This document shows positions 8,258 to 33,707 of a stretch of 38,303 nt of DNA, piece after piece. The DNA lies in the NCBI GenBank assembly GCA_028683655.1, contig JAQUHK010000006.1, forward strand, positions 1-38,303. The letters are read 5' to 3'. The notes below the pieces were generated by a model. The model saw nothing but the letters and a program-made list of their open reading frames with translations. It ran no database searches and was not told the origin of the DNA. The translations under genes were made by a program, and so were the position numbers. The stretch comes from Alphaproteobacteria bacterium. GTDB taxonomy: Bacteria; Pseudomonadota; Alphaproteobacteria; UBA9219. Position 1 is the first letter of the stretch; every line of letters starts with the position of its first letter.

Positions 8258-8405
8258 GTGAAATATCCTATCATCGAAATGAGTATGGTAAAATAGGTGG
8301 TCTAATTTTTGTTCGTCGCCATGTAGTTAAGGCATGGCCAGTGTAACATATTTTCCTGAAACTAATGCAACTATAGCGGTCGTATAGCTGAAGGACTTGT
8401 TTTGG

Positions 8406-8530
8406 CGTTAACCCTAAAACGAGAACAAAACGTGAAATAGTCCCAGGATGCGTTTTAAGGCTCGTAGAGAGGTTTTTATTCCTGTCAGGTAGGGGTGTAG
8501 CGGGGTCCTTCGTTTCGCGCGTCCTAGGGG
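8406..8530. repeat. Conserved intergenic element, copy 1
   Basis: This stretch aligns without gaps to 33317-33441 in the same orientation. Three blocks carry the similarity at identical spacing: the first 35 bases (three differences), AGGTTTTTATTCCT (8470-8483, identical) and CGTTTCGCGC (8511-8520, identical); the bases between them are diverged. Block 1 contains GAAC-N7-GAAA (8423-8437), one base from the alphaproteobacterial LexA box GAAC-N7-GAAC. On the minus strand both copies also translate to a similar peptide, with RNKNL and ISRFVL in common. It is not a family I can name. Confidence 0.8.
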
Positions 8531-8580
8531 CCTTCAGGGCCCCGGAATCGGTATTTCCAGCCCCGATCCTAGGACTTTTT
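8521..8580 (+). terminator. Candidate terminator hairpin at the end of the element
   Basis: GTCCTAGG (8521-8528) pairs perfectly with CCTAGGAC (8568-8575), which runs directly into five Ts. An inner GGGGCC/GGCCCC hairpin lies close to the left arm. A second small hairpin, GGGGC/GCCCC, sits at 8587-8604. If transcribed rightward this could end a short RNA made from the element. No equivalent structure follows the second copy, so the link is weak. Confidence 0.4.
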
Positions 8581-8700
8581 GCCGATGGGGCGATTTCAAG
8601 CCCCAAAACGCTTTTTAAGAGGGAAAATAAGGTTAACAGACCAAAGCGGCTCGTGTCCTGCGCCACAAGAGTCTCTGGTGCTTCACCCGCGCCAAAGTCG

Positions 8701-9533: not shown

Positions 9534-9560
9534 TCCTTCATGGCGACCAAGAAAAAACCT

Positions 9561-9647
9561 GCGTCATTCCCGCGAAAGCGGGAATCTAGATTTCTAGTTA
9601 ATGCGTGTTGCCGAGTTATGGATCCCCGCTTTCGCGGGGATGACTCG
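9561..9647. repeat. REP-like palindrome, GTCATTCCCGCG family, copy 1
   Basis: The 24-base GTCATTCCCGCGAAAGCGGG... arm (9563-9586) is mirrored by GATCCCCGCTTTCGCGGGGATGAC (split here as GATCCCCGC + TTTCGCGGGGATGAC, 9621-9644). Each arm is itself a hairpin. Copies 2 and 3 lie at 13328-13408 and 33562-33641. It sits between convergent genes, as is typical of such elements. Confidence 0.9.
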
Positions 9648-10675: not shown

Positions 10676-10713
10676 AGATGGGAAGCAAGAGGGGGAGAGG
10701 CAAGAAACAGGAA

Positions 10714-10833
10714 ATGGGATGCCAGCCTTCGCTGGCATGACAAGTTTTTTCAAATCTACCGCACAAAAACTAACAGCGTTTTATCCCGCACTATCCCCAA
10801 AAGGTGTCATGCCAGCGAAGGCTGGCATCCCAT
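10714..10833. repeat. Inverted pair of 29-base palindromic units
   Basis: Positions 10714-10742 and 10805-10833 are perfect 29-base inverted copies, each containing the palindrome ATGCCAGC-CTTC-GCTGGCAT or its complement. They enclose a 62-base AT-rich spacer. The unit matches the widespread TGCCAGCnnnnGCTGGCA type of alphaproteobacterial repeat. It lies between the Zur box and the zur start. Confidence 0.88.
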
Positions 10834-10867
10834 ATGGTTTTTTATATTGAAGATTAAAAGGCACGAC

Positions 10868-11386: not shown

Positions 11387-12142
11387 ATGGCACAACCACT
11401 TATCCTTCTTGATTCTGTTTGCTTCGCCTATGGCCGCCATAAGGCGTTGCATGATGTGTCGGGCAGTTTTACGGCGGGATCGCTCACGGCGATTGCGGGG
11501 CCAAACGGCGCGGGCAAAAGCACGCTGCTGAAAGCCATTGCGGGCGTGATTAAACCACAGCGGGGCTTTGTCCGGCTTGATCCATCAATCAAGGGGCGCA
11601 TCGGCTATCTGACGCAGACCAGCGCGATGAAGCGGCACTATCCCGTGAATGTCGGGCAAGTCGCCGCCGCCGGATTGTGGCCAGAGCTGGGAAGCTTTGG
11701 GCGGATGGGGCCTACGCACAAAGCCAAAGTTGCCGCTGCGCTGCGCGAAGTTGGGCTTGAGGGGTTTGAAGACAGGCAGATCGGCGCGTTGTCGGGTGGG
11801 CAGTTCCAGCGTCTTCTTTTCGCGCGGCTTCTGGTGCAGGATCCTCAGGTTTTGTTGCTTGATGAGCCGTTCGCCGCCGTGGATGCCGAAACGACCGCGC
11901 GGCTAATGCAGCTTTTGCTGCGTTGGCACGGGCAGGGGCGGACGATCATTTGCGTGCTGCATGATCTGATGCTGATCCACAAGTATTTTCCTGAATCGTT
12001 TGTCTTGGCGGGCAAGTGCATGGGGCGCGGGCACACGCATACGCTGTTTGAACAAAAGCTTTTATCTTTCGATCTGGATATGGCCGAGCTTTTGTCGCCC
12101 ACAGAATCCCAAACGCACGGAGGGCCTCATGACGCCGTATGA
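11387..12142 (+). CDS. znuC: Zinc ABC transporter ATPase ZnuC
   Basis: This 251-residue ATPase subunit powers zinc import. Motifs appear in order: Walker A GPNGAGKST (38-46), Q-loop Gln77, signature LSGGQ (135-139), Walker B LLLDE (to Glu160), D-loop and switch His192 in VLHD. The His-containing segment GRGHTHTLFEQ near the C-terminus suits a metal transporter. ATG 11387 follows GAGG and gives the usual short N-terminus; the open frame extends 22 codons further upstream, into the microgene. Its stop lies 14 bases past the znuB start, so the two are translationally coupled. Confidence 0.96.
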   Translation: MAQPLILLDSVCFAYGRHKALHDVSGSFTAGSLTAIAGPNGAGKSTLLKAIAGVIKPQRGFVRLDPSIKGRIGYLTQTSAMKRHYPVNVGQVAAAGLWPELGSFGRMGPTHKAKVAAALREVGLEGFEDRQIGALSGGQFQRLLFARLLVQDPQVLLLDEPFAAVDAETTARLMQLLLRWHGQGRTIICVLHDLMLIHKYFPESFVLAGKCMGRGHTHTLFEQKLLSFDLDMAELLSPTESQTHGGPHDAV

Positions 12143-13262: not shown

Positions 13263-13327
13263 ATTTCTTCTCCAAAAAATAGAGTATACCTATTGCACTC
13301 AAAGAGCTGGGCCATCGACTAAAGTGA

Positions 13328-13408
13328 GTCATTCCCGCGAAAGCGGGAATCTACATGCTGAAGGAATCCCCTATGACAAACATGGACCCCCGCTTTCGCG
13401 GGGATGAC
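13328..13408. repeat. REP-like palindrome, GTCATTCCCGCG family, copy 2
   Basis: The arm at 13328-13351 matches copy 1 at 9563-9586, and the complementary arm ends at 13408. It lies in the 368-base gap between the glycine-zipper gene and gyrA. The rest of that gap (13409-13630) is AT-rich and presumably holds the gyrA promoter, but no convincing hexamer pair was picked out. Confidence 0.9.
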
Positions 13409-13630
13409 GCAATTTCTTGAAAGAGCCCATCCCTTTTACAAGTGCAAGTGGTGTCTCCTTCAGGGCGTAGCAGAAGAGTGCTACTAAAACGTTTACACTA
13501 TCTAACCCCTTGAACAAAATGATTTTTGGCTGTCGTTTTTGTTTGGTCTTTATGTTGCCTGGTGCTAAGTTAGTCAGCGGCTCAAAAGTCGCTGATTCTT
13601 TATTATTCAACAGTTTTTCCAAGGTGTGCC

Positions 13631-17204: not shown

Positions 17205-17280
17205 GACCTCGTAGCTCAGCTGGTAGAGCATTTGACTTTTAATCAGAGGGCCATGGGTTCGAGTCCCATCGGGGTCACCA
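17205..17280 (+). tRNA. tRNA-Lys (anticodon UUU)
   Basis: A 76-base cloverleaf can be drawn. The acceptor arms are GACCTCG and CGGGGTC with one G-T pair, followed by A and an encoded CCA. The D arm is GCTC/GAGC. The anticodon stem TTTGA/TCAGA has one mismatch-like pair and carries loop CTTTTAA with anticodon TTT. The T arm is ATGGG-TTCGAGT-CCCAT. It precedes an AT-rich accessory stretch, so its 3' end is a plausible integration site. No second copy of the 3' end was found in the window. Confidence 0.96.
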
Positions 17281-33316: not shown

Positions 33317-33441
33317 CGTTAACCATAAAATGAGAACAAAACGAGAAATAGCCCGCAATCGCGTCAGGATCGCCGCACAAAGGTTTTTATTCCTACCGTG
33401 TAGGGGGATAGCTGCCGCCTCCGTTTCGCGCATCCCTGAGG
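33317..33441. repeat. Conserved intergenic element, copy 2
   Basis: Gap-free counterpart of 8406-8530, same orientation, offset 24911. The GAAC-N7-GAAA box is at 33334-33348, AGGTTTTTATTCCT at 33381-33394 and CGTTTCGCGC at 33422-33431. It begins 40 bases after the cheZ stop. The terminator-like hairpin that follows copy 1 is not conserved here; a smaller GAGGC/GCCTC hairpin lies just downstream. Confidence 0.8.
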
Positions 33442-33561
33442 CCTCCAAGCCTCCGTAAACAGCATCCAAGAACCCAGTTTAGGACATATATCTCCTGTGG
33501 CGGGTTTTGATGCCGGTACGCTTCGTACTTCAAAAGTTGGTGCTGTGACCTAAAAACATGC

Positions 33562-33641
33562 GTCATTCCCGCGAAAGCAGGAATCTATATGTTGACGTTA
33601 TCCCTTTGGATCAACGTGGATCCTGCTTGCGCGGGAATGAC
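33562..33641. repeat. REP-like palindrome, GTCATTCCCGCG family, copy 3
   Basis: GTCATTCCCGCGAAAGCAGG... at the left and its near-complement ending GCGCGGGAATGAC at 33641 match copies 1 and 2, with a few changes (AGCAGG for AGCGGG) mirrored in the other arm by CCTGCT, which preserves pairing. It lies between convergent genes. Confidence 0.88.
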
Positions 33642-33707
33642 GCCATTTTTAAGCATCGCCCCCAACTCTTGAAGCGCGATGGGTATATACACGACCAGAT
33701 AAAATTA

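Follow-up and report, generated by a model that had tools for sequence, protein, structure and literature searches.

The window, a stretch of 38,303 nucleotides from an alphaproteobacterial genome (contig JAQUHK010000006.1, lineage UBA9219), contains two copies of an intergenic repeat and, on the + strand, a tRNA gene at 17205-17277 (Rfam tRNA, 72 bits). When the two stretches at 8406-8530 and 33317-33441 are aligned without gaps in the same orientation, 89 of 125 bases are equal (71%, 12 sd over base shuffles), in agreement with the preliminary description of a paired, gap-free element at these positions. The motif GAAC-N7-GAAA, which that description placed in block 1, is found in both copies. 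The element is longer than the 125 bases first delimited, as the extent of the model matches indicates (Table 1). Copy 1 can be followed from one TTAA to another, while the 3' GGTTAA was not found for copy 2 (33318..33487).

Table 1. Coordinates of the two repeat copies and of their conserved parts in the window.
Feature	Position	Strand	Remarks
Repeat copy 1, 5' TTAA to 3' TTAA, 229 bp	8408..8636	+	Model match 8407-8580, E 6e-38 (copy in training set); first seen by blastn to other copies; ends TTAACC / GGTTAA
Repeat copy 2	33318..33487	+	blastn 73% over 142 bases, E 1.5e-15; model match 33318-33487; 5' GTTAACC present
5' end GTTAACC of copy 1	8407..8413	+	Common to most copies
3' end GGTTAA of copy 1	8631..8636	+	Inverse of 5' end (TTAACC at 8408)
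Block 1 of copy 1, GAACAAAACGTGAAATAG	8423..8440	+	LexA-box-like part 8423-8437; 97% pairwise identity among copies
Block 1 of copy 2, GAACAAAACGAGAAATAG	33334..33351	+	LexA-box-like part 33334-33348; recA+lexA matrix rank 1 of 76,578 window positions
Block 2 of copy 1, GTAGAGAGGTTTTTATTCCT	8464..8483	+	Left arm of imperfect palindrome
Block 2 of copy 2, AAGGTTTTTATTCCT	33380..33394	+	
Central block of copy 1, GTAGGGGTGTAGC	8489..8501	+	Dyad form in relatives is GCTAGGGnnGTAGC
Central block of copy 2, GTAGGGGGATAGC	33400..33412	+	

Other palindromic sequences occur in the window as well. CGTC-type REP hairpins (TGCGTCATTCCCGCGAAAGCGGGAATC) lie at 9553-9593, 13325-13418 and 33550-33653, some of them as inverted pairs; one such pair is found about 60 bp past repeat copy 2, and others adjoin repeat copies L002 and L006 elsewhere. 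A further inverted pair at 10705-10842 (GGGATGCCAGCCTTCGCTGGCATGAC) has arms of 44 nt that are 86% complementary. CGTC-tagged REP families are common in alphaproteobacteria (PMC3733652). Like the repeat, those in the window are dispersed palindromes, but they are hairpins of 20-40 bp and of unrelated sequence. The element had been described as none of the common REP types, and its length of 170-230 bp, compared with 20-40 bp for a single tagged hairpin (GTAG/CGTC), bears this out.

The repeat is not restricted to the window. At least 18 dispersed copies are present in the 2.28-Mb genome to which the window belongs, and copy numbers are to be read as lower bounds. The assembly is fragmented (207 contigs, 94% complete). 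A blastn search of this genome with positions 8380-8560 returned about a dozen more copies at E-values down to 1e-24. The sequence-only profile R1 recovered 17 copies at E < 1e-8 and one centre-deleted copy (C125:5608-5710); model E-values are partly circular, as most copies trained the model, whereas the blastn E-values are independent of it. Two outcomes had been named as counting against the element, namely that only these two copies exist as recent duplicates and that all copies belong to one protein family, and neither came true. Across copies, the blocks TTAACC..AAAA, GAGAACAAAACGTGAAATAG, GTACAGAGGTTTT, GTAGGGGGATAGC, GGTATTC and GATTCTCGG are held at constant distances, with single-base indels only. 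The bases between the blocks are indeed scrambled, as first noted: in 11 copies carrying block 1, this 18-bp block is 97% identical in pairwise comparison versus 54% for the rest of the element. One copy (L003, G000:C160:6372-6544) carries its central block in inverted orientation, as GCTATCCCCCTAC rather than GTAGGGGGATAGC, with the spacing unchanged. In two others (L004 and L010, on G000:C79 and C145), a different 5' part, TTATAGTTAATCGCCGC, replaces TTAACC and block 1, which suggests module exchange.

Both ends of the element, TTAACC...GGTTAA, are kept in six loci, where they lie 206-252 bp apart, and the TTAA at each end is compatible with an inferred target-site duplication. In six of the 11 copies in a species of the same genus (G003), the same interval is matched by the combined model, R2, on both strands, as also in a copy from another genus (G006), and the element is thus an imperfect palindrome. 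Compensatory pairs between the arms were observed in 11 cells, compared with 4.1 in shuffles (none of 500 shuffles reached this count, and slid controls stayed far below it), although relatedness can raise such counts and gene conversion from one arm to the other is another possible cause. The symmetry is evident in the G003 sister subfamily and weak in the window species' own copies.

The possibility that these conserved blocks are read as protein or as RNA has to be weighed at this point. The similar minus-strand reading of both window copies, pointed out in the preliminary description, would fit a small conserved protein, but in other copies the reading of the peptide does not stay open. 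No frame on either strand is open across copies and stops occur in every frame, so the peptide is a by-product of conserved DNA. The protein-coding reading was rejected on this ground, such a protein is hardly conceivable, and the original preference for conserved DNA blocks over a protein is upheld. That the copies are small-RNA genes, as also proposed at the outset, or otherwise structured RNAs is very unlikely. Some sister copies do fold 4-5 sd better than shuffles, alike on both strands, and past the 3' block there is a variable hairpin. In the window species, however, RNAalifold predicts no pair in the alignment, the window copies fold about like shuffles (z near -1), neither of them contains a promoter-like site, and no Rfam match to the repeat was obtained. 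A structured RNA was rejected in view of the missing consensus pairs, the fold score and the Rfam search. A promoter or terminator within the window copies was discarded too; of the terminator-like sites around copy 2, all but a weak one are external to the copy.

Relatives of the repeat are found close to the window species. The 11 copies in G003 form a diverged sister subfamily, which, being without the GAACAAAACGTGAAATAG block, is about 23 bp shorter, and their centre is GCTAGGGCCCTAGC or near it. Flanking-protein comparison of G003 with the window's genome (G000) revealed no shared orthologous insertion context. G006, from a different genus within the taxonomic family, has a third family of the repeat, with seven matches of 81-85% identity, and weak matches with the same centre type (e.g., GGCTAGGGTGGTGGCC) in the further genus members G001 and G004 are likely relatives. 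Most sister copies (L094-L101 and L075 in G003) end with a short T/A-loop hairpin, such as TTTTGCCTAAAAAAGAGGCAAAA, about 30-60 bp past the CTCGCCC block, and at the corresponding place G006 copies have GGCCTTTTTGAGGGGGTGA. Other members of the order gave no match, and among 385 genomes sampled across the class and searched with stricter filters, only the window's own matched. Phage or plasmid cargo was rejected, as phage and plasmid records contained no match, and pattern matches in GTDB genomes and IMG/VR were judged to be due to chance, with little coverage past a seed of 18-19 bases. The repeat changes rapidly and has been multiplied independently by each species.

How such an element would move can be considered from its ends. 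Transposition into TTAA would be carried out by an enzyme acting in trans. Piggybac-like elements use TTAA targets, and for this reason the IS1380 family was considered; no IS1380-type transposase was detected in the six genus members searched, and an IS1380/piggyBac-like mobiliser was therefore rejected. Neither the 20 flanking proteins scanned with Pfam nor the window's own neighbours include a transposase, and among these and the IS1380 family none sharing the TTAACC...GGTTAA ends was found. An empty site at base resolution was not seen among the relatives compared, which are too diverged. At the glmM-side locus, one downstream gene is common to the relatives, but the neighbours of the element differ, and consequently no empty site is readable there. 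The copies, the palindrome and the unrelated insertion sites are observed directly, and the element is small, non-coding, multi-copy and intergenic in the manner of a MITE. The suggestion of a mobile non-coding element is supported, in that the repeat is probably mobile.

Among known systems, the repeat is closest in form to ERIC and YPAL and in host class to the Caulobacter CcrM-associated intergenic repeats (CIR). ERIC/IRU (RU-1) and YPAL (RU-2) are enterobacterial non-coding, intergenic, dispersed imperfect palindromes of 127-168 bp, and YPAL, like the present repeat, has no TA ends, is not A+T-rich and contains internal inverted repeats (PMC2229807). The repeat described here is likewise non-coding, intergenic, dispersed and imperfectly palindromic with pairing arms, a likeness of form, but it belongs to another host group, carries a LexA-like block and is bounded by TTAACC...GGTTAA. 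CIR elements are about 110 bp long, consist of two arms joined by a linker, carry a conserved GANTC and are found across alphaproteobacteria (PMC2229807). Inverted arms and the absence of an open frame are common to CIR and the present repeat, both of which are alphaproteobacterial and intergenic, and GANTC is present in many copies here, about 19 of 33 from three genomes having it at the corresponding 3' position. It is nevertheless highly improbable that the repeat is a relative of CIR that is read via GANTC methylation. The excess of GANTC is small (30 versus 21.8, sd 4.6), both window copies are without it at the homologous position, and the model has no match in the 385 class-wide genomes besides the window's own. 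Set against the description of CIR, the repeat also falls outside that group in size (170-230 bp), in layout (one central dyad) and in its optional rather than constant GANTC, and within the genomes searched it occurs in one family only. The Correia/NEMIS element of Neisseria is a MITE with a site for a host protein (IHF) inside it (PMC2229807). The present repeat also holds an internal site resembling that of a host protein, but this site is LexA-operator-like and long terminal inverted repeats are lacking.

The internal site is block 1. In alphaproteobacteria, the LexA box is GTTCN7GTTC / GAACN7GAAC (PMC12700426, PMC3091678), and block 1 has the same spacing with A instead of C as the last base. 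All intact copies have GAAA in place of GAAC as the second half-site, which leaves seven of the eight bases of GAACN7GAAC in agreement and the two halves short of a perfect direct repeat. None of 5000 column permutations gave a stretch of the alignment as conserved as block 1, and detection bias is limited, as the model also recovered copies without the block. The intact block is missing in six of the 18 copies, some of which are without it while others retain degraded likenesses only (L013, L062). Genome-wide, GAACAAAACGNGA occurs exactly 13 times, in 12 repeat copies and in the promoter of lexA, a gene whose identity is confirmed by TIGR00498. In this promoter, GAGAACAAAACGAGATAATATGTTCTACTTTAGTTCTCGTTTTGTTG, the repeat's word occurs in two inverted versions, one on each side of a canonical GAACN7GAAC box. 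The lexA promoter (L016 1490-1570; G000:C3, about 12036-12116) can be described as a triple operator, in which the canonical box stands between two inverted near-copies of GAGAACAAAACGAGA. The GAACN7GAAC boxes, together with the LexA sequence itself and the CGTC-type REPs, point to an alphaproteobacterial host. The recA promoter carries GAACAAAAATAGAAC and GAACAAAGCAGAAAC, and GAGAACAAAGCAGAAAC lies further on from GAACAAAAATAGAAC. Both window sites match the genome's own recA and lexA boxes. In a matrix built from the canonical recA and lexA boxes only, the 33334 site ranks 1st and the 8423 site 6th of 76,578 window positions, and with the two lexA side boxes added they rank 1st and 2nd; two to four sites went into the matrix, and the repeat was not used to train it. 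The genome's own promoters thus strengthen the LexA-like box first proposed from the motif, and it is rather probable that LexA binds block 1 in many copies.

A different protein may recognise the block. The repeat would then be the same mobile palindromic element, with block 1 serving as a site for its own transposase or for another host protein, and its likeness to the lexA promoter would reflect convergence or a repeat fragment taken into that promoter. Transposase sites usually lie just inside element ends, and block 1 is located 15 bp inside the TTAACC end. The constant GAAA half-site points in the same direction, as does the lack of genome-wide enrichment of canonical GAACN7GAAC (54 matches versus 134 for a reversed control). 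However, the sole exact match outside the repeat is the lexA promoter, with two inverted versions around the canonical box, and GAGAACAAA is also present in the recA promoter. In addition, the sister subfamily has spread too, yet without block 1, which indicates that the block is not needed for spreading. Such a transposase or host-protein site is possible but clearly the less probable explanation. The account that is moderately favoured as a whole is that the repeat is dispersed, non-coding and imperfectly palindromic, measures about 170-230 bp, belongs to the MITE/ERIC/YPAL kind with TTAACC...GGTTAA ends and a central dyad GCTAGGGnnGTAGC, has expanded separately in different species of one alphaproteobacterial family and, in the window species, is most likely bound by LexA at block 1 in many copies.

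If block 1 is a LexA site, bound LexA may locally repress transcription or movement from the end of the element; alternatively, the copies may simply be extra LexA-binding sites that act on free LexA. An effect on neighbouring genes would be less likely than one on the element or on free LexA; the consequence of binding is the weakest step of this scheme. The preliminary description had considered a regulator-binding cassette, and one that puts neighbouring genes under SOS control is very unlikely. The LexA-like box is there, and copy 1 is situated between two divergent reading frames, but control of neighbours finds little in its favour. By reading-frame heuristics, only two of 25 copy contexts are divergent, with 15 tandem and eight convergent, and ten copies start no more than 40 bp past the upstream stop codon. 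The copies are mostly at the 3' ends of genes, and the neighbours are unrelated housekeeping genes such as folD, scpB, acetate kinase, a lepA-like gene and others.

Small palindromic repeats are common, while a recognisable regulator site within them is rare, and no report of a LexA operator linked to a MITE was found in the open-access literature. It is a tentative and rather doubtful proposal that a mobile palindromic repeat acquired a LexA operator and carried it around the genome, with LexA restraining mobility until DNA damage occurs, or with a dozen extra sites titrating LexA and thereby shifting the set-point of the SOS response. Ultimately, if LexA does bind the copies, the genus would offer a natural comparison between one species whose repeats contain the site and a sister whose repeats are without it, and one could test whether a mobile repeat has become coupled to the SOS response or has shifted it.
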